64,000 bases of DNA from Leptobrachium leishanense (lineage: Eukaryota; Chordata; Amphibia; Anura; Megophryidae), in NCBI GenBank assembly GCA_009667805.1, contig CM019063.1:354664942-354728941 (forward strand), written 5' to 3'. Within the stretch, counting starts at the first letter, position 1. The number at the start of each line of letters is the position of its first letter. The notes below the pieces were generated by a model. That model saw only the letters and a program-made list of their open reading frames with translations, was not told where the DNA came from and made no database searches. The position numbers were made by a program, and so were the translations under genes. Below, one piece after another: positions 34,855-57,255 of the stretch.

Positions 34855-37660
34855 AAAGATATACAGAACTCTGATTCAACTCTGTTATAAAAATTGGAGA
34901 TATGCAGAACTCTGATTCAACTGTGTTATCTAGATTAAAGATTTCCAGAACTCTGGTGTAACTCAGTGAGACACCCTGATAGCTGGCAGCCAGTGACAAG
35001 ACACAGATTAAAATTTGCAGAAATCTGCTACAAGTCTGTGAGACCCCCTGATAGGACCCCGTGATAGCTGACAACAGTGACAAGACACAGATTACAATTC
35101 CCAGAAACCTCCTATAAATCAGTGAGACCCCCTGATGGGTGGCAGTGACAAGACACAGATTAAAATTCCCAGAAACCTATAAATCAGTGAGACCCCCTGA
35201 TGGGTGGCAGTGACAAGACACAGATTACAATTCCCAGATATCTGCTAGAAGTCTGTGGGACCCCCTGATGGGTGCCAGTGACAAGACACAAATTACAATT
35301 CCCAGGAACCTCCTATAAATCAGTGAGACCCCCTGATGGGTGGCAGTGACAAGACACAGATTAAAATTCGCAGATATCTGCTACAAGTCTGTGAGACCCC
35401 CTGATGGGTGGCAGTGACAAGACACAAATTACAATTCCTAGATATCTGCTACAGGTATGTGGGACCCCCTGATAGCTGGCAGTGAGAAGACACAGATTAC
35501 AATTCCCAGGAACCTCCTATAAATCAGTGAGACCCCCTGATGGCTGGCAGTGAGAAGACACAGATTACAATTCCCAGATATCTGATACAAGTCTGTGAGA
35601 CCCCCTGATGGGTGGCAGTGACAAGACACAATTTACAATTCCCAGGAACCTCCTATAAATCAGTGAGACCACCTGATGGGTGGCAGTGACAAGACACAAA
35701 TTACAATTCCCAGGAACCCCCTATAAATCAGTGAGACCCCCTGATGGGTGGCAGTGACAAGACACAAATTACAATTCCCAGGGACCTCCTATAAATCAGT
35801 GAGACCCCCTGATGGGTGGCAGTGAGAAGACACAGATTACAATTCCCAGGAACCTCCTATAAATCAGTGAGACCCCCTGATGGGTGGCAGTGACAAGACA
35901 CAAATTACAATTCCCAGGAACCTCCTATAAATCAGTGAGACCCCCTGATGGGTGGCAGTGCCAAGACACAATTTACAATTCCCAGGAACCTCCTATAAAT
36001 CAGTGAGACCTGTGGCGGGATGGAGTATCCGCCTGCGGTCCTGCTCTATCTGACCCCCTCTTTGGTGTTGCCAAGCCCGACTACCGAGTGGCACGGCACC
36101 CGGCGTCTCGAGCGGCTTGGGTAGAAGACCACGTGGCGGTGGAGATCTGGAGAGTATATGGGGCACCAACGGTGGAAATCCGCCCGACTACTGAGTGGCA
36201 CGGCACTCGGCGTCTCGAGCAGCGGATCTACTGACCTTTGGAAGGCTGGAGACGGTCTGCGTGGCGAACCGCGGTTCGGTAGAGTCTCCTTGAAGATGCG
36301 GGGCACGGCGCTGAGTCGAGGTCCCGATTCGGGGTGGTTGCGGTATCCCGAGGTACCGATCCAAGGTGGCGCAACGGCGCGGCGAATCGATGTTCTGCTG
36401 CGGAGTTAGAGTGACCCGTTCCTGGGTGGTGGTGATATATAGCCGGCGTGAAATGACAACACCAGACGAAGCTGCATGTATCAAACACTCAGATGAACTG
36501 CCTTTTAATGAACAACGCCACTATTTATGCTGAAGTACAACAGTCATAATTTGCATACCCATACTAATTAGTAGCATACCCATACTAATTAGTTATGTCA
36601 GTTATTTACAATAAACATTCTTCACATTCTCTTAGCCTTCAGCTCACACAACGTTTGTACATCCATTGTTCCAGCACATCAGATTAAACACACACTATCA
36701 GAGATCCCTTAAATTAAACATGTAGCTAGATAATGGGGAAAATCCCTGACGCATAAATTACACAGCAGCAAAACTTGTTTACTAGCTACAGAAACACACA
36801 TTTACCTACAGGAATATAAGTATGTTTTAAAACCAAAGCTATGTCATTTCACTAAACTAAATTAAACTAAAACCAAACGATGTAAAATATATTTAAAATC
36901 ACACGATATAAATGACCATAAAATCCTTTGAGGTTTGAAGCATGGAGCGTTACCTCAGCTCCATGACATAGGTCCTTTTAAAAAATGTCTTGGGTTTGAG
37001 TCCTGGGCTCGCTGCGCCGAGCCCCTATGTCCCTTCCGTGACAAGACCCCCTTATGGGTGGCAGTGACAAGACACAAATTAAAATTCCCAGGAACCCCCT
37101 ATAAATCAGTGAGACCCCCTGATGGGTGGCAGTGACAAGACACAAATTACAATTCCCAGGAACCTCCTATAAATCAGTGAGACCCCCTGATGGGTGGCAG
37201 TGACAAGACACAAATTACAATTCCCAGATATCTGCTACAAGTATGTTGGATCCCCTAATAGCTTACAGTGAGAAGACACAGATTACAATTCCCAGGAACC
37301 TCCTATAAATCAGTGAGACCCCCTGATGGCTGGCAGTGACAAGACACAAATTACAATTCCCAGGAACCTCCTATAAATCAGTGAGACCCCCTTATGGGTG
37401 GCAGTGAGAAGACACATATTACAATTCCCAGATATCTGATACAAGTCTGTGAGACCCCCTGATGGGTGGCAGTGACAAGACACAAATTACAATTCCCAGG
37501 AACCTCCTATAAATCAGTGAGACCACCTGATGGCTGGCAGTGACAAGACACAAATTACAATTCCCAGGAACCTCCTATAAATCAGTGAAACCCCCTGATG
37601 GGTGGCAGTGACAAGACACAAATTACAATTCCCAGATATGACCCCCCAATAGCTGCTGGC
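34855..37660. repeat. 68-bp minisatellite upstream of the hAT transposase
   Basis: About 24-25 units are built on 'cagtgagaccccctgatggg' and 'tggcagtgacaagacacaaa'. A variable third block is either 'caggaacctcctataaat' or 'cagatatctgctacaagtct'. The first ~150 bp (34855-35000) hold degenerate units. The array is split by a solo LTR at 36011-37043. It lies between the element's terminus and the transposase start, where a promoter would be. Confidence 0.9.
36011..37043 (-). mobile_element. Solo LTR (same family as the element at 52766-57255)
   Basis: Starts TGTGGCGGGATGGAGTATCC and ends TTCCGTGACA. Perfect 5-bp duplication agacc (36006-36010, 37044-37048). It is collinear with the LTR at 56248-57255. 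The family's internal element reads on the minus strand here, so the LTR's own orientation is minus. It is probably the product of recombination between two LTRs. Confidence 0.92.
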
Positions 37661-38001
37661 ACTGAGAAGACACACTAACATCTCAAAAAACATGTGCTGG
37701 GACTGCGAGAGACGCCTTATATAGTGTGCTGCGGGACTTAGCTCTGTGAGCCCATGAGTGGACAAAATTTGCCCAATCAGGACTCTGAGCCGTGATTGGC
37801 ATAGTCTTGCAGCTGACCTGTGGTCAGGTGCAAGGCTGTAGCCAATTACAAGCTTCAGGCCAGTGGAAAAGTGCATTGTGGTCCATTGTGGTGCATTGTG
37901 GGCGAACATGCGGCAAACACGCGGATATGTTCGGAGTTCGATGAACAGCCGAATGGGCGATGTTCGAATCGAACACCGAACCACTCATCCCTACTTCTGG
38001 A

Positions 38002-44160: not shown

Positions 44161-45840
44161 ATGGGTAAAGGAGCATCCCCCCCTAAGAAAAGGAAGCCAG
44201 GCGAGACTCCTCTGGAATATATGCTACGTTATTTCAAGTTTTGTATACGGTAAACCAATATGGGGTTAAATTAAGTAAGGAGAGGCTGCGGACTCTGTAC
44301 ACTAGAATAGCCTACCCTTGTCCCCAAGGGGCCGAAAGAGGGGTTAATGGACCCAGCGTTGATCCAAAAGGTTTATGCAGGTGTCACCCTGAGCATATCT
44401 GGAGGCACTGTGTGAAGGATAAGAGAGTCACCATGTAATGTTAGCCATGGGACAGGGAAACAGCTGCACCCCGTGCAAGTCGCTGACCCCCCTTGTCTTG
44501 GCAGACCATCCTGATGATCTCCTGCTTCCCCCGCCCTACCTGTCCTATTATACTGTCCTATTATACTGTTGCGCACCAAGCCACTGCTGCGAGCGCGTCA
44601 CACCCAGCTTCAGGGGCCACGAAAGCCGCTATCTCCCCACCCGTGGACCTATCCACCCCATCTACCCCCTGTGATGGGACCCCGTCTGCAGTAGCGGAAG
44701 AGATAGGGGTCCTTGGCGCACAAGGGCTAGTTACCCCCAAGAGGAGTGGTCCTGTTCCTGTCGAAGGATTTATGTACGGGGCAGAGAATCCGCAGCTAGC
44801 CCTTCAGTTTATGTCCCCAGACATAGCCAACATACAAGCTGTTTCACTTGAGAAAACTCGTGCTGATAATATTGTAAGGCGCCGAGAGCCATATCAATAT
44901 ATAAAGCCCCTTCGGGCTGCCCCTGGTCCCCAGATAGACAGTCAACCGGGTTAACTTACTTTCCGTTCACTACCACTGTTTAATTGGAGAACCCAGACCC
45001 CCGCCTACTCGGAAAAACCTGCTTTTATGACTAGCCTGGTGGAATCTATTATGGCCACACACAACCCCACATGGGCAGATTGCCAACAGCTATTATTAAG
45101 CCTCTTCACTAGCGGGGAACGGAGTAGAATTATTGTAAATGCCCACAAGTTTCTAGAAAGGATAGCCAAGAGGAGAACCATGCTAATCCCTAGGTGTGGG
45201 CGGTGGGACATTACCCCATCACATATCCCCAATGGCCATACATTGCTGCAGGGATGACCAGTCTCCGACACTACCAGTCAGCCGTCTTAGTAGGCATATG
45301 GGAGGGGGCTAAGAAGCCAGTAAATATTGGCAAAATATCTGAGATATTGCAAGGCGCAAATGAAACCCCCAGGGTGCATCTATAAAGGTTAATGGAAGCA
45401 TATTGTAAATATAGTCCATTAGATTCTGAAGCAGCTGAAAATCACTGTATGGTGAACACCTCATTCTCAGTCAAGCCCAAAGAGATATCCATAATAAATT
45501 ACAGAGACCAGAGGGATTTGTTGGCATGAACATTAGCCAGCTGGTCGAAATCGCGAATAAAGTTTTTCATAATAGAGATGTAGAATCCAAGTGGGAAGAG
45601 GGACGAGTGCTAGTCTGCTGGCTGTTGCTCTTACAGAGGGAAGAGAAGGAGGAGGAGGGGTAGGAAAGGAAACGGCAACTGATGGAAAAGGCCGGTGCCG
45701 CAAGACGAGAGGAAGGGCTGGCAGGCTCGTATTAGGCAAGAAGTGTGCCTTTTGTAAATTAGAGGGGCACTGGAAAAATGCCCGTACCATTTGGCCATGG
45801 GAGGAGATGGGAATGGGGCACCTCATGGGCAGGTTTTGAA
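44161..45840 (+). pseudogene. ERV gag (matrix, proline-rich region, capsid, nucleocapsid), broken
   Basis: Begins MGKGASPP at 44161. The Gly2 context suits N-myristoylation of a matrix protein. The frame changes near 44235. The matrix continues to about 44430, a Pro/Ser/Thr-rich stretch covers about 44560-44760, and capsid follows. Capsid landmarks are WADCQQLLLSLFTSGERS (about 45073-45126), LVGIWEGAKKPVNIGKI (about 45290-45340) and QGANETP. The nucleocapsid knuckle at 45744-45785 reads CAFCKLEGHWKNAR, so the final Cys of CX2CX4HX4C is Arg. There are several stops and frameshifts. The capsid order and motifs are of gammaretrovirus (class I ERV) type. Not functional. Confidence 0.85.
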
Positions 45841-46234
45841 TGTGAGGTATGAGAGGGAGGGAGTCGCGGAAGGCTTTGTGGTTCTGGCGTGCGCATCCTT
45901 CTTGGGGCAGACACAGACCGGACTGATCCCACTCGGTGCCACCGAGCCCACGGTCCTGATGAGAGTGGGGGAAGAAGAAACTATTTTTATGGTTGACACC
46001 GGGGCAGAACATTCTGTTGTAACCCAACCCATTGCGCCTCCTTCAGGTGGGGAAGCTAGTATAGTGGGAGCAATGAGAATAAAAGTTAAATGCCCCTTTC
46101 TCAGCACCCAGGTTTGCAGCTTAGGTGTGTATCAGGTTGAGCATCAATCTCTCTATATGCCCGAATGTCCAATCCAGCTCCTGGGACGGGATCTCTTGAG
46201 TAAATTACAAGACCCAATCACCATGTTATTCTAG
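45791..46234 (+). pseudogene. ERV protease
   Basis: The reading frame contains the retropepsin motif VDTGAEHSVV (about 45993-46022), a flap-like stretch, and the ILGRDLL-like C-terminal segment QLLGRDLLSKL (about 46178-46210). This order is standard for retroviral aspartic proteases. The ORF overlaps the end of gag in another frame. The catalytic DTG is intact, but upstream gag damage makes translation unlikely. Confidence 0.88.
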
Positions 46235-46379: not shown

Positions 46380-47860
46380 CAGTGCCTCGGCACTCCAGGG
46401 GTGTGGGCAGAAGATAACCCGCCAGGACTGGCTTTAAACATTCCTCCAGTATACGTTGATCTCAAGCCTGGAGCTATGCCTGTAGCGCTCTGACAATATC
46501 ATATCCCTCAGAAAGCCAATGAGAACATTCAGACCCACCTGCAGCGCTTATTAAAACACGGTATATTGAAATTCTGTGTGTCGCCGTGGAACACCGCACT
46601 TTTACATGTACAGAAAGAAGAGATTATTATTATTATTATTATTATTCTTTATTTATAAAGCGCCAGCATATTCCGCAGCGCTGTACAATAAGCACAGTAT
46701 AGACAGGGTTACAATACATTGAACAACATTTGACAAACAGTACAGGAGGAGATGAGGGCCCTATTCCCGTAGGAACTCACAATCTGGGAGGGTTGGGGTT
46801 GGAAACAGGAGGAGAGGACTGTAAGGTGAGAGTGATTGATGGTTGCGTCAGTGAGTTGGGTGGTAGGCTTCCCTAAATAGGAATGTTTTAAGGGAGCGTT
46901 TGAAGGAAGAGAAGTTAGGGGAAAGTCTGACAGTACGAGGGAGAGCGTTCCAGAGAGTGGGAGCTGCGCGTGAGAAATCCTGCAGTCTATCATGGGAAGA
47001 GGTGATGCGGGGAGAAGCTAGGCGCAGGTCACTGTTTGACCTTAGGGAGCGGGCTGGGGTGTATTTGGTGATTAGTGAGGACAGGTAGTGGGGAGCTGAG
47101 TTAGTGGACAAGAGACAAGAGTATAGGCCTGTACAGGATTTGTGAGCTGTAAACAATGCGGCTGTGACGTTGTATCCCGTTGTTCCTAACCCATACAATT
47201 TATTGGCACTGATACCCGGAAATACATAGCTCTGCACAGTGCTAGACTTGAAAGACGCTTTCTTCTGTATCCATTTGGCCCCTGCAAGCCAACTCCTATT
47301 TGCATTTGAGTGGGCGGATTCAATAACCTGTTCAAACCACCAAATGACCTGGACTCGTTTGCTGCAAGGTTTCAAAACTCACCCACGATCTTCGGCAGCG
47401 CCCTGAGTCAGGATCTCCTGGCCTTTCACTTTCAGCCAGACAAAGATGTACTGTACTGCTGCAATACGTAGATGATTTGCTGCTCGCATCTCCAACTGAA
47501 AAATACTGTATAGCCACCACCCAGGAGGTCCTGCATCTCCTATGGCAAGCAGGCTACAAAGTATCAAAGATAAAAAGCACAAATTTGCAGACACTGTGTA
47601 AAATATCTGGGTTTTCATCTGACAGGAACCAAGCGTGCAATGGGTCCTGCACGTAAAGAAGCAGTCTGCCGTATTCCTCAGCCACAGACACAACACCAAG
47701 TAAGAGAGTTCTTAGGTGCAGCAGGATTCTGTCACCTGTGGATCCCCAATTTTGCCATGATTGCCAAACTTCTCTACCAAGCTGCAAAGGGGGGAGAAAA
47801 AGATCCATTTCTCTGTGGTGAAGAACAAGCCTTTCCACCTGTATGTACATGAACACAATC
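46380..47860 (+). pseudogene. ERV reverse transcriptase, split by a LINE fragment
   Basis: N-terminal landmarks are LNIPPVYVDLKPGAMPV (about 46436-46486) and SPWNTALL (near 46582). The gene is then interrupted at about 46620-47104. It resumes with RPVQDL and VPNPYNLLALIP (47118-47217), [15 protein letters not shown] (near 47241-47285) and the catalytic YVDD box at 47465-47476. The connection region follows (REFLGAAGFC near 47704-47735). In-frame stops (for example a TGA after QDL) and frameshifts are present. The order and motifs match gammaretrovirus-like Pol. Confidence 0.9.
46620..47104 (-). mobile_element. Second LINE type, 3'-end fragment with (ATT)n tail
   Basis: Begins with (ATT)n at 46622-46645 and the 'ataaagcgccagcatattccgcagcgctgtacaata' tail. 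It encodes on the minus strand a reverse-transcriptase C-terminus (DRLQDFSRAAPTLWNALP, SFKRSLKTFLF). The possible target duplication is agaagaga / acaagaga. It splits the ERV reverse transcriptase. Its family (L2/CR1-like) differs from the LINE at 9748 and 48763. Confidence 0.8.
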
Positions 47861-47864
47861 ATAC

Positions 47865-48681
47865 TGCTGCTGGAGTCCTGATCCAGTACCTGGGCTCCTG
47901 GCAAATACCTGTGGCCTACCTGTCTAAACAACTACTGGACTACAAGGGAAATTACTGGTTTAGCAACAGCAGAATCACCAAGTATCAAGCCATGTTGTGT
48001 GAAAACCCACAAGTTCACCTGGAACTCATCTCGACATTGAATCCAGCAACACTGCTTCCTGACTCCTCAGAAGACCTGAGTCATGAATGTCTTCAAGTGA
48101 TGGATGAAGTATTCAGTAGCAGACCTGATTTGAAAGATATACCCCCCAAAGGCAAATATGACATGCAACGGTTTACTGATGGAATTAGTGATGTAGAAAA
48201 TGGCAAAAGATACGCTGGATACGCAGTGGTCTCGCTTGATGAAGTTCTTGAAGCAGAACTGCTGGCTTCTGGAACGTCTGCCCAGTTAGCAGAAATTATT
48301 GCTTTCACCAGAGGACTTGAACTATCTCAAGATCAGAGAGTGAATATCTTCACGGATTCGAAATATGCATTCATGACTGTCCACGCACATGGAGCACTCT
48401 ACAAAGAGCAAGGCCTCTTAACCTCTGCAGGAAGAAAAGTGAAATATGCTTCAGACATTCTCAGACTACTTGATGGTATATGGATGCCCAGCGCTGTCAG
48501 TATTGTCCTTTGCCGGGGTCATCAGAAAGGGAAAGAAGAGGTACCCAGGGGCAACAGGAATGCTGTTCGAGCTGCTAAAGAGGCTGCGAGAGTTACTCCT
48601 GACATTGAACCTGGCCATAACAGTCCTTCTTTAAGCAAGGTGCTATCCTGCCTGGCCCAGTGCAGGCAACAGTATATCTGA
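47865..48681 (+). pseudogene. ERV RNase H domain
   Basis: The frame 47761-48681 contains MQRFTDGISDVENG (first Asp), QLAEIIAFTRGLEL (Glu) and VNIFTDSKYAF (second Asp). It ends with VLCRGHQKG and GNRNAVRAAKEAA, where the usual catalytic Asp after Ala is Val. The domain degrades the RNA strand of RNA-DNA hybrids during reverse transcription. The frame ends in TGA at 48679. The sequence right after this stop continues in the same frame into the OGFR-like segment. Confidence 0.9.
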
Positions 48682-48762
48682 GAAATACCCTCTTCAGGAA
48701 GTGAGGAGTCAGATTCTTGGGATGAAGAAGATGATGGAGAATGGCAGAAGGTTAAAGTCAAG

Positions 48763-50625
48763 AGTTTATTTATTTATTTGCAAAGTATTTTACCAGGAAG
48801 GATACATTGAGATTTCTCTCGTTTTCAAGTATGTCCTGGAACATTGAAATTTTACAGTCGTTACAGAAATACAAAGGATTAAATGCAAGATATTAAAAAC
48901 AAAGCACAAATATACAGATTAACACAGAAAATAAATATATAGGAAATATAGTCACTATGTTACATGTTTACAGGTGCATTCCGTATTGAGGTATGTTAAT
49001 AGGGAGCTCTTGAGTGACTTAAGACTGGGAGAAGATTTGATGGCGTCTGGGAGGTTATTCCACAACTGCGATGCTCTGTAGGAAAATGAGGATCGGGACA
49101 CTTTCTTTTTGTATTGTGATACTGCAAGTAAGGTGCTGGTCCTGGATCGGAGGTTATAGGATGAGGGAACTACTAGGGGAAGCAGCCTATTCAGGTAGGG
49201 TGGTAGCTTCCCAGAAAATCTCTTAAACACCAGGTTGGAAAGGTGAAGAGTGCGTCTAGATTGCAGCGATGGCCAGTTTAGCTCTTTTAACATGTCATAA
49301 TGGTGGGTAATGTATTGTAGCAGAAAGCGACAGAATGAGTTATACAATGTAGTAAGTTTCTGAAGGTGCGTTTGCAGGGCAGTTGCATATCATTCAATAG
49401 CTGGCATAAGCATTTGTTGTACAATCTGCTTTCTTACTGTGGGGCTCAGGCAGGATTTGTTTCTGTTAGGGATGCACAGAAATTTCAGCCACCGAAAACT
49501 ATAGGCTGAAAATGGTGTTTTGGGTTTTGTCCGAAATGGAAATTCAGCCAAAAAAAAAAAACGGTCGAAAATTTCCGTTTCAAAATTGGGCCTGGAGGCC
49601 CGGCAGAGCCGGTGGCTCGCCTGAGCCTGGAGGCCGGCCGAGCTGCCTGCTCGGCCAGCTTCCAGGCTCAGGTGAGCCCCCGGCTTGGCCTGGGCCTAGA
49701 GGCCCAGCTGAGCCGGAGGCTCACCTGAGCATGAAGGCCGGCCGCGCAGGCAGCTCAGCCGGCCTCCAGGCTCAGGCGAGCCCCCGGCTCGGCCGGGCCT
49801 CCAGTCCCAATTTTGAAATGGAGATTTTCGGCCTTTTTTTTGGCTGAATTTCCATTTCGGCCAAAAACACAATTTTTGGACGATAATTTTTGGTGGCCGG
49901 GGGCTAGCCTGAGCCTGGAGGACGGCCGAGCAGCCTGCGACAGCCGGAGGACTGTCACCGCTGGAGCTCAGCACTGAAGTAGGAGGATGTAGGTGAGTAT
50001 GGTGCAACCAATCAGCCATGCAAACCTGGGCCGGCCTTCGGGATCAGACGAGTCCCCGGCCTCCAGGCCCAGGTTCTCATGTCTGATTTTTGGTTTCGGT
50101 ATTGGTTTTCGGACGAACCGATCCCAAATTTTCAGTATCGGCCGGAAATTACCGTTTTGATGCATCCCTAGTTTCTGTACAGGGCACCTAGTTTGGGGTA
50201 AAGTTTAGATGAGAGTTTTTTGATGTGGTGGCCAAATGATAGATTTGGGTCTAACCACATACCTAGATATTTGAGAGAAGTGACTGTGGTCAGCGTACCA
50301 TTTGATTTTGTCCTGACACGTAGTTGGGGATTTTGCAATTTTTGTAGTTTAGGTGCTGTTCCAAAGAGCATTGTTACAGTTTTGTCAGTAATTAAAAAAA
50401 GTTTGTTATCTGCAATCCACTTTTCTACCTCTGTGAATTGTTCTTGCAGCACGCCCTCCAGCTGCGGGAGATTTGGTTTGCTGGTATAGATTACGGTGTC
50501 GTCTGCGTACATGTGTACAGTTGAGGCTTTGCAGACGGTAGGCAGATCATTTATGAATATTGTGAATAGCAAGGGGCTGAGTATCGAGCCTTGGGGTACT
50601 CCGCACGTGACTGAGAGGGGGAGGG
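48763..50625 (-). mobile_element. CR1/L2-type LINE, 5'-truncated (copy 2)
   Basis: Minus-strand LINE of the same family as 9748-14596, with the 3' tail '(tttat)n gcaaagtattttaccagg' at 48763. It carries reverse transcriptase segments: GVPQGSILSPLLFTIF (about 50605-50558), MYADDTVIY (about 50511-50485) and a C-terminal part (LWNNLPDAIKSSPSL about 49065-49020). The 5' end is truncated at about 50625, judged by loss of match to copy 1. It is interrupted by a hAT MITE at 49467-50170. Confidence 0.9.
49467..50170. mobile_element. hAT non-autonomous element (TAGGGATGCAC ends) in the LINE
   Basis: Starts TAGGGATGCACAGAAATTTC and ends TTTTGATGCATCCCTA. Perfect 8-bp duplication gtttctgt (49459-49466, 50171-50178). 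704 bp. The interior is GC-rich with repeated 'gcctggaggccggcc(g/c)' blocks and inverted 'ccaaaaa' arms. Confidence 0.93.
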
Positions 50626-51360
50626 AGGACAAACAGTTACAAACAGGTTTGGCAATATGAGATTGCCAGGGACCTGAGAAGATACCGGAAAGGATATCCG
50701 GACTGCTTAGATGCCGAGAATTGTTCTGATGAGACTTCACTTGACATGCCTAACTTTGAATTCTACATGAACAGACGGCGTTTTGAACCAAATGGAGAAT
50801 TCATTGAAGTTTTTCTCCACAAATGGAATAACAATTATGACCTACTTGAAAAGAATCACCACTATGTCCTGTGGCTGTTCTCTCTACGAGAGCAAGGCAG
50901 AAATAAGTGGGCCAAGAAACTTAAGTTGCAAGAAATAGAACTTATGAAGAACACCAAAGAAGTCCAGCAAAGGATTCTTGAGGCCTACAAGATGATGCTG
51001 AAATTCTTCGAGGTAAGATTAAAGGGGGAGTATGGAGAAGTTGAAGTTGAACGGGCTGAAAATTTTCCAGAAAGGTTTGAGAACCTGAACTCCAACAGTC
51101 ATAATAAACTACGAATCACCTGAATTCTTAAGTGTCTGTGAGAATTAGGAGCCAAACAGTACCAGGCCCCCCTGGTGAAATTCTTCTTGACAGAGACGTT
51201 GGTTGAAAAAGTCTACCGAATATGAAAGACAGTGCCCTGAACTACTTCATGTTCACTATGAAGAACAAACAGAAACAAAGACATCTGATATATTTCTCAT
51301 GGGAGAAGTACGAACCAAGGAGTGAGTTCATCTGGGGACCCAGAGAGAAACTCGAGAGAT

Positions 51361-52516
51361 ACAAGAAACCCTACTCCGTGATTGCTCCCTTGCCACCTCC
51401 TCCGCTCGACAAGTGGTCACCAGCTTACTCTGAAAAGGGGAAGAAATGGCTCTCTGAGAAGGCAGGTGATTACAGAGAAGATGGATGGTTCCAGTTAGCC
51501 AACAATCAAATAGTCCTGCCCAATTGACACCAGAAATTGTCCGAGCTCTCCACACCAGCATCCATGGAGGGAAAACGGCTATGGAACAGCAATTAGAACC
51601 GCATTTCTACGTCCCTGGTCTCTCAGCTATTTGCCGAACAATAGCCCAACAGTGTGTTACCTGGTGCCAGGAACAACCCTAAACAAGGACTGGTGCAACC
51701 GCCAGGGATACAACCTATTGGTCTGTCCCCAATGGCTTCTCTCCAGATTGACTTTACCGTGCTCCCGTCCTGTAAAGGGTACAAGAATTTACTTGTGTTG
51801 GAGTGCACATTAACTGGATGGGTTGAGGCCTTCCCAACCAGAACAGAGAATACTGCAGAAGTGGTGAAGTGCCTCCTGAGAGAAATCATTCCTCGGTACG
51901 GATTGCCACTTGAGATTGGGTCAGACAATGGTCCAGCCTTCATACAAGCCTGCCTGCAACAACTTGCCTGCCATTTGGGCATCACCTGGAAACGGCATAC
52001 CGCCTACAGGCCCTAAAGGTCCGGAAAAGTGGAGCGGATGAACAAAACTCTAAAGACTTTGATGGCCAAAATATGCCAAGAAACATTACTGAACTGGCTG
52101 GATGATATGCCGATAGTCCTCCTACACGTTAGGTGTAGCCCCACCCCACTCCTTAATTTGAGTCCATACAAACTCCTGTTCAGCTGTCCTACCCCTTTGT
52201 TAAGTGGGATGAAGGGGGACCTTCAGGCATTAGGGGAAAGGTACTGCTGCTAGGCCAGACAATGCAAACGTTGAACACTTGGGTCAGTGATAATCTACCT
52301 CATTTATTGTATCTGCCTTTGCATAAATACTGTCCAGGTGATTCTGTTTGAGTGAAAGAATGGAAAACTGATCCATTAGGCCCTAAATGGATGGGTCCAT
52401 ACCTTTTTCTGTTGTCCACTACTACAGCAGTGAAAGTGACTGAGGTGGTACCATGGAAACACCACTCGAGACTTAAGCCTGCACCACCTACCCCTGAGCC
52501 TCAGTGGAAGGTCTGA
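51361..52516 (+). pseudogene. ERV integrase and Pol C-terminus
   Basis: The zinc-binding N-terminal domain shows HTSIH (near 51550) and QQCVTWC (about 51645-51665), giving HHCC. In the catalytic core, Asp lies in LQIDFTVL (near 51748), Asp in IGSDNGPAF (near 51921) and Glu in KVERMNK at 52032-52034. That is DD35E spacing, with one in-frame TAA between the last two. The C-terminus retains the GPY/F-like module (KWMGPYLFLLSTT, VVPWKHHSRLKPAP, about 52388-52485). The stop is at 52514-52516. The family joins viral DNA ends to host DNA. Decayed. Confidence 0.9.
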
Positions 52517-52765
52517 TCCACTCAAGCTGCGCCTTACCCAAGCTGCCCCAGAATCTGCCCTCACCAACAAGTAGGTGTTTTGACAGCCATAATAATGCCT
52601 GACCACCTACCAATGATGGAAAGTAGGGAATCCCAAAGGGAAGCCTGTGAACACCTTCTACCCCCAATGATTGCCAAAATGGAGATACGGCCTTTTGAGC
52701 AGCTCAAGAAACGTATTGTCTTTTTCTGCTACATGGCCTGTTTCTGTTTCTGATAATATACATTA

Positions 52766-53408
52766 TGATGGAATGGAGTATCCACCTGCGGTCCTGCTCT
52801 ATCTGACCCCCTTCTTTGGTGTTGCCAAGCCCGACTACCGAGTGGCACGGCACCCGGCGTCTCGAGCGGCTTGGGTAGAAGACTACGTGGTGGTGGAGAT
52901 CTGTAGAGTAGATGGGGCACCCACGGTGGAAATCCGCCCGACTACCGAGTGGCACGGCACTCGGCGTCTCGAGCAGCGGATCTACTGACCATTGAAGGGC
53001 TGGAGACGGTCTGCGTGGCGAACCGTGGTTCGGTAGAGTCTCCTTGCAGATGCAGGCACGGCGCTCAGCCGAGGACCCGATTCGGGGTGGTTGCGGTATC
53101 CCAAGATACCGATTTAAGGTGGCGCAACGGCGCGGCGAATCGATGTTCTGCTGTGGAGTTAGAGTGTCCCGTTCCTGGGTGGTGGTGATATGTAGCCGAC
53201 GTGAAATGACAACACCAGGCAAAGCTGTATGTTTCAAACACTCAGATGAACTGAACTCTTAAAATCACACGATAAAACCGACCATAAAGTCTTTTGAGGT
53301 TTGAAGCATGGAGCGTTGCCTCAGCTCCATGACATAGGTCCTTTTAAAAATGTCTTGGGTTTGCGTCCTGGGCTCGCTGCGCCGAGCCTCTTGGGTCATT
53401 CCGTGACA
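52766..53408 (-). repeat. 3' LTR of the non-autonomous element (deleted version)
   Basis: Collinear with 56248-57255, except that about 365 bp are missing between two short 'aatcacacg' matches, near 53260. The terminal TG..CA motifs are preserved. Confidence 0.9.
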
Positions 53409-53911: not shown

Positions 53912-56190
53912 TCAGATGGTGGAGGATGGGCAGAGGCCAGCGGCCCTCTCTCCCGTTGCCAGCTCTTCTGCTGGGGGAGTGGGCACAGGAACAACGTCCA
54001 GGGGGTCAGATGGGGTCAATGGCTGCGGGCTAAGCAGCTCGGGTAAATTCTGCTGTTCCTCAGGGCAGACGACGGAGAGTGGGCAGAGGCCAGCGGCACT
54101 CTGCCCCGTTGCCAGCTCTTCTGCTGGGGAAGTGGGCGCAGAAATGACATCCCGGGTGTCAGGTGGGGTCAACGGCTGTGAGACAAGCAGCTCGGGTAAA
54201 CTCGCCTGCTCCTCAGGGCAGACGACGGAGGGTGGACAGAGGCCAGATGCACTCTGCCCCGTTGCCAGCTCTTCCGCTGGGGAGGTGGGTACCGGAACAA
54301 AGTCCAGGGGTTTAGATGGGGTCAATGGCTGCGGGATCAGCAGCGCGAGGGTATCCCCTTTCTGCTCCTCGGGGCAGAGGGTGGGAGATGGGCAGAGGCC
54401 AGCGGCGCTCTGCCCCGTTGCCAGCTCTTCTGCTGGGGAGGTGGTTACCGGAACAAAGTCCAGGGGGTTGGATGGGGTAAACGGCTGCGAGATCGGCAGC
54501 GCGGGGTTATCCCCTTTCTGCTCCTCGGGGCAGCTGGGAAAAGGTGGGCAGAGGCCAGCGGCACTCTGCCCCATGGCCAGCTCTTCGGCTGGGTGGGGGT
54601 CTCCTTGCGGGAGGGTGGCTTCTTCCATCCCCAGGGCGGTCAATGGCTGCGAACAACCCAGCCCGGGGGAACCATCTGTCTGCTCCTCCTGGCAGACTGT
54701 GGGCAGTGGGCAGAGGCCAGCGGCGCTCTGCCCTGTGGCCAGCTCTTCGGCTGGGTGGGGAATAACTTTCTCTGCTGCTGAGGGTGGGCAGAGGCCAGCG
54801 GCGCTCTGCCCCGTTGCCAGCTCTTCCGCTGGGCCCGCGGGCACGGACACGTGTCTTCCTGCGGGTTGAAGGGGGTAGCTTCTTCTGCTGGGGCCCCAAC
54901 GGGGACCCATGGGAGCATCTCGGCCTCCCATACTTCCAAGTCCTGTGGACTGTCGGTTCCTTCCGCCGACCCGTCCCAGTACATGGGACTCAGACCCGAC
55001 TGCGGAACGCTGTCCAACAATCTCCTGTAGGCCTTCTCGAGCTCCCACTCTCGCTCTGCTAGGAACTCCAGTTCCTCGAACTCCGAGTCCCTGCTGTCGT
55101 ACGGGAGCTCCTGTTCCCGTCGCTCCAGTATCTCCTCCGACCGCTCTTCTGTCTCTTCTCCGAACCCGGGGTCTGTGGCCATGCTCTCGTAAAGCAGCCC
55201 CGTGCCACCATAGTGGGGCCCTGCGGTGGAGGCGCCGTCAATGGTGCGGGGTATCAGGGGGCCGGCTAGCCACCGGAGTGCGCGGTACGCGGCGTCCAGT
55301 GCAATCTCCTGCTGCACCAGGTACTGGAGCTCTGCCTCCCACTCCTCCGGGGCCCGATCTTGCAGGAACGCCGCTCGAGCGTCATACTGCACCTGGTGGA
55401 TGACAGCGTCGGAGGGAACATAGACGCCATGGTAGTCCCTCTCATGGTACAGGGCCTCGTACCAAAGTTCCTGGCGGATCTCGTCTCGCCACTCGTACCC
55501 GGTGGGCTCCACTGTGGACCCATGGTACCGGACCAGGCCCTCCTGCAGCCTTCTCGGGAATTCCGCCCTCGAGTCCGCGAGGGTGCTGAAACAGTGGCAC
55601 TGCCACTCGCTGGGGGGTGTGGCGTCCTCGGATGCAGCTCCAGGTGAGCTGTAAGCCTCCACCCAAGGGTCACTGGGATGTGCGTTTTCCCCCATACAGG
55701 CTCCAGGCGAGCTGTAAGTCCCGAAAGGGGTATCGCTGGGGGGGGTAGGTTCCCGGGGTGAAGCTCCAGTCGAGCTGTAAACCTCGACCCAGGGTCCTAC
55801 GGGTTTGGGGACGGGGTTAGAAAGTTCACTCATTCTTGCACTGAGCGCCGCCATCCGCAACTCGTGCTGATGGTCCTTCTCTTGCTCCTCGCGGTCCTTG
55901 TCCCGCTCCTCTTCCTGCCGGACCTCCTGGATCACCTTGCTTATGTCAGCCTCCGATGGGGCAGCTCCGAGTAGGGCGATCCGTTGCCGCGCCTTTCTGA
56001 CGAAGGCATCTTCCGTTTCCTCTGCGAGGACAGGGGTGGGGACGGGTGGCTTCACCGTCGCCGCGCCCACCCGGTCTAGGACCTGCAGCTCCTTAATCAA
56101 GGTCTTCTTGCGTTTAGAGCCTGGGGTACCTCCCCGATTCTCCAGCATGCCCCGCAGGGTGTCCCTGTTGTAATGGCTGTACACCGCCAT
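53912..56190 (-). pseudogene. Gag-like protein of the LTR element, one frameshift, C-terminal tandem repeats
   Basis: The ATG at 56190 gives MAVYSHYNRDTLRGML. It lies 36 nt past the PBS. The N-terminal third is basic then strongly coiled-coil (EVRQEEERDKDREEQEKDHQHE-type, about 55920-55860). The middle contains repeated YSSPGA(S/C/A) and PSD/PSE motifs (about 55800-55600). The following part is Glu/Trp-rich. The frame passes to another near 54840. The C-terminal region holds about nine repeats built on AEELATGQSAAGLCP. I recognise no zinc knuckle, protease or RT, and no known protein family. The coding strand is the minus strand. The 425-residue plus-strand frame (53592-54869) is its shadow. 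Confidence 0.75.
53925..54835 (-). repeat. Coding tandem repeats AEELATGQSAAGLCP
   Basis: About nine nucleotide units each contain 'gggcagaggccagcggc(g/a)ctctgcccc'. Spacing is irregular, from about 60 to 170 bp. The 15-residue core is almost invariant while the linkers vary in length and sequence. Confidence 0.9.
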
Positions 56191-56225
56191 GGTGTAGGTC
56201 TCCTTGCTGGGGGGTTGCAGAGAGC

Positions 56226-56244
56226 GATCCCACCGCTGCCACCA
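56226..56244 (-). promoter_or_regulatory. Primer-binding site of the LTR element, tRNA-Leu type
   Basis: On the minus strand TGGTGGCAGCGGTGGGAT begins three bases after the LTR end. From memory it is an exact complement to the 3' end plus CCA of the vertebrate tRNA-Leu(AAG). Confidence 0.8.
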
Positions 56245-56247
56245 GTA

Positions 56248-57255
56248 TGACGGAATGGAGTATCCGCCTGCGGTCCTGCTCTATCTGACCCCTTTCTTTG
56301 GTGTTGCCAAGCCCGACTACCGAGTGGCGTGGCACCCGGCGTCTCGAGCGGCTTGGGTAGAAGACTACGTGGCGGTGGAGATCTGTAGAGTAGATGGGGC
56401 ACCCACGGTGGAAATCCGCCCGACTACCGAGTGGCACGGCACTCGGCGTCTCGAGCAGCGGATCTACTGACCATTGAAGGGCTGGAGACGGTCTGCGTGG
56501 CGAAACGCGGTTCGGTAGAGTCTCCTTGCAGATGCAGGCACGGCGCTCAGCCGAGGACCCGATTCGGGGTGGTTGCGGTATCCCAAGATACCGATTCAAG
56601 GTGGCGCAACGGCGCGGCGAATCGATGTTCTGCTGCGGAGTTAGAGTGACCCGTTCCTGGGTGGTGGTGATATGTAGCCGACGTGAAATGACAACACCAG
56701 GCAGAGCTGTATGTTTCAAACACTCAGATGAACTGAACTCTTTTAATCACACGCCACTATTTATGCTGAAGTACAGCAGTCACAATTTGCATACCCATAC
56801 TAATGAGTTAGGTCAGGTATTTACAATCAACATTCTTCACATTCTCTTAGCCTTCAACTCACACAACGTTTGTACATCCATTGTTCCAGCCCATCAGATT
56901 AAACACACACTATCAGAGATCCCTTAAATTAAACATGTACCTAGATAATGGGGAAAATCCCTGACGCATAAATTACACAGCAGCAAAACTTGTTTACTGG
57001 CTACAGAAACACACATTTACCTACAGGAATATAAGTATGTTTTAAAACCAAAGCTATGTCATTTCACTAAACTAAATTAAACTAAAACCAAACGATGTAA
57101 AATATTTAAAATCACACGATAAAACCGACCATAAAGTCTTTTGAGGTTTGAAGCATGGAGCGTTGCCTCAGCTCCATGACATAGGTCCTTTTAAAAATGT
57201 CTTGGGTTTGCGTCCTGGGCTCGCTGCGCCGAGCCTCTTGGGTCATTCCGTGACA
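56248..57255 (-). repeat. 5' LTR of the non-autonomous element
   Basis: 1008 bp, ends TG..CA. Matches the solo LTR at 36011-37043 along its length and the shorter LTR at 52766-53408. Confidence 0.92.

Follow-up and report, generated by a model that had tools for sequence, protein, structure and literature searches.

Organization of the pol region in the window

The DNA stretch analysed here (the window) is 64,000 nt long (C1:354664942-354728941) and comes from the 3.54 Gb assembly of the toad Leptobrachium leishanense, which was also the genome scanned for related copies. It carries an endogenous retrovirus (ERV) in which the N-terminal domain of the cellular protein OGFR (opioid growth factor receptor; Pfam OGFr_N) lies inside Pol, between RNase H and integrase (IN). 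We conclude, with a probability of about 0.92, that this ERV belongs to a high-copy, gammaretrovirus-like family in which OGFr_N is a resident Pol domain (in the order protease (PR), reverse transcriptase (RT), RNase H, OGFr_N, IN), that the domain goes back to a spliced OGFR transcript of the Leptobrachium lineage, and that it has been kept by purifying selection. The following features are found in the window copy (ORF, open reading frame; UTR, untranslated region; LINE, long interspersed nuclear element).

45758..46234, plus strand: retroviral aspartic protease (PR) piece (Pfam RVP, E 9.1e-11)
47348..47656, plus strand: reverse transcriptase piece with YVDD (Pfam RVT_1, E 1.7e-5, below the RVT_1 cut-off)
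47761..48681, plus strand: RT connection and RNase H, terminated by TGA (stop 48679-48681; Pfam RNase_H, E 1.5e-17)
48635..48667, plus strand: probable OGFR 5'UTR remnant serving as linker (KVLSCLAQCR; host TVLPCLVLPR); the match in the window is weak (E 0.21)
48682..48765, plus strand: captured OGFR N-terminus, acidic tract (48712-48747 against host exon 1, 77.8%, E 0.001; copy L002 aligned to toad OGFR P0024)
48760..50655, minus strand: later LINE insertion, approximate bounds (RT ORF 50168-50749 on the minus strand, and repeats)
50680..51123, plus strand: captured OGFr_N domain, first part (Pfam E 7.8e-44 for ORF 50611-51123)
51207..51395, plus strand: captured OGFr_N domain, last part, ending near ...RYKKP (Pfam E 4.7e-14 for ORF 51207-51527)
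51396..51527, plus strand: OGFr-integrase junction and IN N-terminus (SVIAPLPPPPLDKWSPAYSEKGKKW...); same junction at many loci, aligned by eye with the lizard Pol P0123
51470..51682, plus strand: integrase H2C2 zinc-binding domain (Pfam E 5.2e-8)
51645..52016, plus strand: integrase catalytic core (rve, Pfam E 1.6e-15)
52017..52253, plus strand: integrase C-terminal part, without a Pfam match in the window (found by tblastn at 10 of 19 other loci and at 20 of 20 larger loci; MLVIN_C in copy L028)

The two OGFr_N ORFs (50611-51123 and 51207-51527) lie in different frames, and their OGFr_N pieces score 150.1 and 52.8 bits against PF04664, well above the gathering threshold of 22 bits that defines the family. 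An initial annotation, made from the letters of the window, had described acidic residues in the RNase H frame after a single TGA, followed by a LINE insertion and then the OGFR N-terminal domain, and each of these elements was recovered. With its sequence SDSWDEEDDGEWQ, the acidic tract represents OGFR's own N-terminus, which in toad P0024 reads EMDSWDEEEEKEWQ. In L002 the LINE is absent, and the acidic tract and OGFr sequence are adjacent and in frame. Nested inside the LINE is a palindromic, GC-rich element (about 49470-50175), the arms of which (49555-49685 and 49711-49841) are 89% complementary. The last ORF, which had been described as running from the OGFR-like end into integrase, does enter the IN N-terminus but then meets a stop, and the IN domains of the window copy are in another frame. 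The window copy is an old family member broken by a stop codon, a LINE and frameshifts.

Distribution of the Pol-OGFr arrangement

The genome-wide OGFr query returned 5,243 first-look candidates, the best 150 of which were scored. All of these had E < 1e-46, and 125 of the 150, the window copy included, are stop-free within the match by an eye count. RNase H and integrase both lie beside OGFr, in the expected order and within about 1.5 kb on each side, at 13 of the 19 other loci that were fetched, and one of the two at the other six. Twenty larger loci (9.5-9.9 kb), chosen for long open frames and including one place twice (L018 and L027), each contain pieces of RT, RNase H, OGFr and IN in the expected order, and 19 contain PR as well. 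A single frame runs from the RT piece to the IN C-terminus in 10 of these 20 and from RNase H to the IN core in 13, the longest open frames reaching 1440 aa, in keeping with the proposal of the initial annotation that an ERV lineage once made Pol with an extra OGFR-like domain. That annotation had also named both junctions, RNase H-OGFr and OGFr-integrase, as the mark of a viral gene if shared between loci, and in this genome many loci share them.

Approached from the integrase side, OGFr was found upstream of integrase in 9 of 10 places (ranks 2-28 of the integrase list); the tenth, L050, has a deletion from the middle of RNase H into the start of IN and is without the OGFr domain. At 24 loci, the IN N-terminal motif was found together with the residues that precede it, and 22 of these loci show the OGFr end and a VAALLP/VIAPLL linker in frame, L020 and L048 being the two that differ at this junction. 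A 24-mer from OGFr, allowing up to two mismatches, occurs 3,587 times in the genome, and a 24-mer from RNase H, taken from the same set of copies, 3,022 times (control 0 in each case). Both patterns derive from young-clade sequences and do not capture older copies. Pairing was done with 100 exact hits per 24-mer, all on contig C1, where 85 of the 100 RNase H hits fall inside the stretch covered by OGFr hits. An exact OGFr match follows on the same strand within 2.5 kb for 61 of these 85, a lower bound because mismatched hits were not included, and the spacing is 509-527 bases in 57 of the 61 pairs. Since there are thousands of matches on many contigs, an assembly error is an unlikely source of the Pol-OGFr join.

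The youngest viral clade is without the acidic N-terminal part. Another viral lineage, represented by the proteins P0038 and P0042, sits on a long branch and differs in its RNase H-OGFr linker.

Viral anatomy and age

The Gag and MLVIN_C matches come from copies outside the window. In L028, Gag_MA and Gag_p30 lie in one ORF and RVP in the next, while a third ORF carries RVT_1, RNase_H, OGFr_N, H2C2, rve and MLVIN_C in that order; its OGFr_N match scores 236.1 bits and spans profile positions 3-204 of 208. Gag_p30 was detected at E 1.6e-56 in L022 and 3.3e-54 in L028, with Gag_MA in both, and MLVIN_C at E 4.3e-17 in L028. The family is gammaretrovirus-like (class I), because these copies have Gag_MA/Gag_p30 and an IN C-terminus of the murine leukaemia virus (MLV) type. 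Downstream of pol, ORFs in separate copies contain a CWVC motif, an RQKR motif and a hydrophobic segment. To judge from these motifs they look like env, but CX6CC is absent from the pieces scanned and Pfam gives no match. A 583-aa ORF at this position in L024 was considered as a second captured gene and rejected, as its CWVC and basic cleavage motif make it env-like; it also has no Pfam match.

The long terminal repeats (LTRs) are about 675-700 bp long. Both were found in seven of the nine copies tried (L021 and L026 gave none) and are 97.0-99.1% identical, the comparison covering only part of the LTR in L023 and L033. At a neutral substitution rate near 1e-9 per site and year, this divergence would correspond to roughly 5-15 million years.

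Several other repeats surround the window copy. On the 3' side of the ERV, a repeat is present at 52761-53253 and 56243-56735, and again at 36007-36500; the copy at 52761 is 97% identical to that at 56243 over 300 nt, and the one at 36007 shows 81%. Among these repeats lies a minus-strand ORF (54640-56280, 546 aa), and the ensemble looks like a distinct LTR-type element nested on the 3' side of the ERV. A tandem array of about eleven 68-bp units occupies 36976-37723.

Donor gene and direction of capture

In a careful tree of 48 rows, hand-picked from 153 and rooted at the midpoint, the 20 viral rows all fall into a single clade (100/100), the outcome that the initial annotation had put forward for checking with a domain tree. 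The viral clade groups with two L. leishanense OGFR proteins (99/93) and then with the OGFR of Pelobates and Spea (99/92), and its stem branch is long (0.4). A quick tree of all 153 rows, which 114 of 120 proteins entered, was concordant. OGFR genes are present in other frogs, in fish, and in reptiles, birds and mammals. By eye, some OGFR-like proteins of frogs and fish (for example, P0002 and P0004) seem to have two or more OGFr_N units.

The host gene has exon 1 at C12:9515100-9515198 and exon 2 at C12:9506868-9506945, with GT and AG at the exon ends and an 8 kb intron between them. Exons 1 and 2 of host OGFR are seen again at C12:9489490/9488531 and on a small contig, C2726. In three older viral copies (L062-L064), the end of RNase H is followed by OGFR 5'UTR and then the exon 1-2 junction, on which the intron comparison rests, with no intron and the residues of the two exons contiguous, which bears out the intron-free, host cDNA origin first proposed from the window. 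Aligned with host 5'UTR plus exon 1, L062 reaches 68.9% over 209 nt (E 1e-24) and L063 reaches 67% over 194 nt (E 5e-19), and L064 retains a coding match of 66 nt (E 4e-12). With the 5'UTR alone (from about -105), the score was equalled by 0 of 1000 shuffles for both L062 and L063, and for the weaker copies it was reached by 19 (L064), 13 (window) and 42 (L002) of 1000. At the other end, host P0024 and virus agree up to YKKP (within FIWGPMEQLKMYKKP in the host) and then diverge. Past this point, the virus reads the IN N-terminus of an OGFr-less Pol; in a by-eye alignment, the lizard protein P0123 has IAALIP...PHYTPEERKW and the virus VAALLP...PVYSEKEKKW.

As viral copies lack the 8 kb host intron and two older copies keep the match to the OGFR 5'UTR, the captured piece is a spliced OGFR mRNA, beginning with about 105 nt of 5'UTR and reaching to the end of OGFr_N. 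Both boundaries being traced, this 5' part of the mRNA sits between RNase H and IN, in the linker that directly precedes the IN N-terminus, and no Pol domain has been lost. No poly-A was found at the 3' junction of the window segment. The initial annotation had cautioned that sequences near 48597 and 51369 might be a decayed target duplication; this did not hold up, as the best local match between the flanks was equalled by 438 of 2000 shuffles, which is chance level. Because there is no poly-A, no supported target duplication and only the 5' part of the mRNA, the capture would probably have occurred by a template switch of RT onto a co-packaged OGFR mRNA.

Selection on the captured domain

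The ratio of nonsynonymous to synonymous substitution rates (omega) was estimated with IQ-TREE (GY+F3X4). Among stop-free copies it was 0.203 for OGFr (n=18), 0.102 for RT (n=19), 0.087 for RNase H (n=23) and 0.097 for the IN core (n=18), and in the same 11 copies throughout it was 0.198, 0.104, 0.104 and 0.124, respectively. Fixing omega at 1 (with kappa fixed at 2.6 in the null) costs 186 and 118 log units, the larger of which corresponds to a 2 x delta lnL of 373. The dN/dS test suggested at the outset thus gave a value well below 1 (0.20), and the OGFr domain is kept by purifying selection. The virus preferentially keeps positions that are invariant in the host; over 43 columns near-invariant in 89 host rows, the host residue is kept in 86% of cases in the young viral clade (39 rows) and 78% in the older one (13 rows), and in 23-29% at variable columns. 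This set excludes five fish/clam rows, P0038/P0042 and, among the viral loci, L012 and L014-L017.

Occurrence in other proteins, structures and literature

Proteins that join OGFr_N to a retroviral Pfam domain account for 15 of the 120 listed matches (779 total) in a protein search with OGFr. Searches with integrase (3 of 120 listed, 146 total) and with RNase H-OGFr-IN (4 of 120 listed, 358 total) also retrieved proteins joining OGFr and Pol, and all of these proteins are from L. leishanense. Among the matches listed in these searches of annotated proteins, none joins OGFr to Pol in another organism, and the nearest OGFr-less frog Pol is that of Pelobates fuscus (65% over 60%). An ORF of copy L017 is 100% identical to an L. 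leishanense UniProt protein (P0001). A pattern scan of IMG/VR matched three stretches, none of them a relative.

A search of the open PMC literature, judged partly from its best matches only, found no paper reporting OGFr in a retrovirus. A paper on invading ERVs (PMC10435555, available in part) mentions L. leishanense once, and the word OGFr is absent from the main text of that paper, of the L. leishanense genome paper (PMC6895153) and of one on anuran repeats (PMC12822217). The structure model of a viral OGFr protein (P0012) is mostly helical, with a mean pLDDT (predicted local distance difference test) of 79 and 188 of 342 residues at 90 or above. A marseillevirus protein (BFVD A0A481YX38) was the sole viral structure match at E <= 0.001.

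Possible function and alternative explanations

Within Pol, the OGFr module would be translated as part of Gag-Pol and then packaged, and the viral protease may either free it or leave it attached to RT or IN. During the early phase it would then act together with RT/IN, and as a module of a normally nuclear protein, most likely a protein-binding one, it could help the preintegration complex at or in the nucleus. Such a role near the nucleus is preferred because OGFR is cited as located at the nuclear envelope, entering the nucleus and regulating growth (PMC5876317, available in part). We tentatively suggest that the captured domain of a nuclear growth regulator has become a permanent, virion-carried Pol subunit that acts alongside RT or integrase during nuclear entry or integration.

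No observation made here contradicts OGFr as a resident Pol domain. However, the integrase query (top 150 examined) returned 25,884 first-look candidates, five times the 5,243 obtained with OGFr, and OGFr-less related elements may therefore exist in the genome. Other observations weigh against the proposed function. Functional OGFR binds met-enkephalin, localises to the nucleus and inhibits growth, and the OGFR tail that follows OGFr_N is absent from the virus. The omega of OGFr is about twice that of RT, RNase H and IN, and the sets compared consist of stop-free copies only, mixing viral and host-side evolution. The Pol frame is broken between RT and the IN C-terminus in 10 of the 20 copies chosen for long frames. 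The P0012 model gave no functional hint, because it has no PDB structure match at E <= 0.001, and a PDB sequence search with OGFr_N found nothing better than E 0.55.

Ranked second, and somewhat less likely, is a decoy function, in which the Pol-borne domain would mimic host OGFR without its C-terminal tail and so lift the OGF-OGFR brake on cell division, to the benefit of a mitosis-dependent gammaretrovirus. The missing tail and the large share of host-invariant positions kept in both viral clades (on average 86% and 78% over the 43 columns) would suit such mimicry, and cell division is a frequent target of the retroviral captures known so far (Src, the walleye cyclins and KIT-ligand; PMC4299795, available in part). 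However, a fixed position inside Pol, and not in a separate ORF, fits a virion-linked role better. Gag-Pol is moreover a minor product, which also argues against a decoy.

The notion that OGFr is an inert spacer, hitch-hiking in Pol as a tolerated passenger, is disfavoured. It would be consistent with the higher omega of OGFr relative to flanking Pol, with the absence of the acidic part from the young clade and of the whole domain from L050, and with the acceptance by Pol of another domain at the same site (non-primate lentiviruses have dUTPase upstream of IN; PMC8278194, available in part). It is countered by the strength of purifying selection, the preferential retention of host-invariant residues, the persistence of the domain in nine of ten integrase-anchored copies and the narrow spacing from RNase H.

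An ordinary OGFR processed pseudogene, placed in one provirus by a LINE, is very improbable; the flanking duplication once suspected would have pointed that way, but the similarity of the flanks is at chance level, the 3' junction in the window has no poly-A, the same junction recurs at many loci and open frames extend across RT-RNase H-OGFr-IN. The thousands of matches with fixed spacing, common junctions and open frames refute a lone processed retrocopy for the ERV family, and this family-wide occurrence also excludes the initial annotation's other refuting case, that further copies all lack the segment. LINE-mediated insertion is an unlikely though conceivable form of the original capture event. 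Transfer in the reverse direction, from retrovirus to host, is the least credible of all and is refuted by the tree and the 5'UTR, for although similarity alone shows no direction, OGFR occurs across vertebrate groups, the viral clade is nested beside Leptobrachium OGFR (with a midpoint root), and the virus has the host 5'UTR without the intron.

Comparison with known systems

If the captured domain is indeed a virion-carried Pol subunit, a spliced host mRNA, including its 5'UTR, would have become a new domain of a replication polyprotein. Two elements of this arrangement are known separately: a domain at the RNase H-IN site (lentiviral dUTPase) and capture without loss (CrocERV29 KIT-ligand). 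A traceable spliced host mRNA serving as a selected Pol domain in thousands of copies had no precedent in the open PMC literature, searched partly through best matches.

Non-primate lentiviruses carry dUTPase in Pol just upstream of integrase, as the toad ERV carries OGFr_N (PMC8278194); the toad ERV differs in having another domain, without known enzyme activity, in another retroviral class, and in that the host donor gene and mRNA boundaries are visible. The KIT-ligand of CrocERV29 is a separate ORF between pol and env with nine ORF-bearing copies reported, whereas OGFr_N is an in-frame Pol domain in thousands (PMC4299795). The walleye retrovirus cyclins and src of Rous sarcoma virus are likewise host-derived genes in replication-competent retroviruses (PMC4299795), but are additional ORFs or proteins outside Pol. 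Two further systems share only the domain: Marseillevirus LCMAC202, a DNA virus, and the nematode MiISE6, a secreted effector (PMC5876317), both with OGFr_N and neither with a link to retroviral Pol. Host OGFR is the source of OGFr_N and of the N-terminal acidic tract, and the virus differs from it in lacking the sequence past YKKP and the exon 1-2 intron, and in its long stem branch. Both the role of OGFr_N and the benefit to Pol of modules at the RNase H-integrase boundary become testable in this system. Retroviral gene capture is usually seen as yielding a separate or replacing gene; in the toad ERV, the host, the donor gene, the mRNA boundaries and thousands of descendants are found in one genome, so that the emergence of a new Pol domain can be traced step by step.

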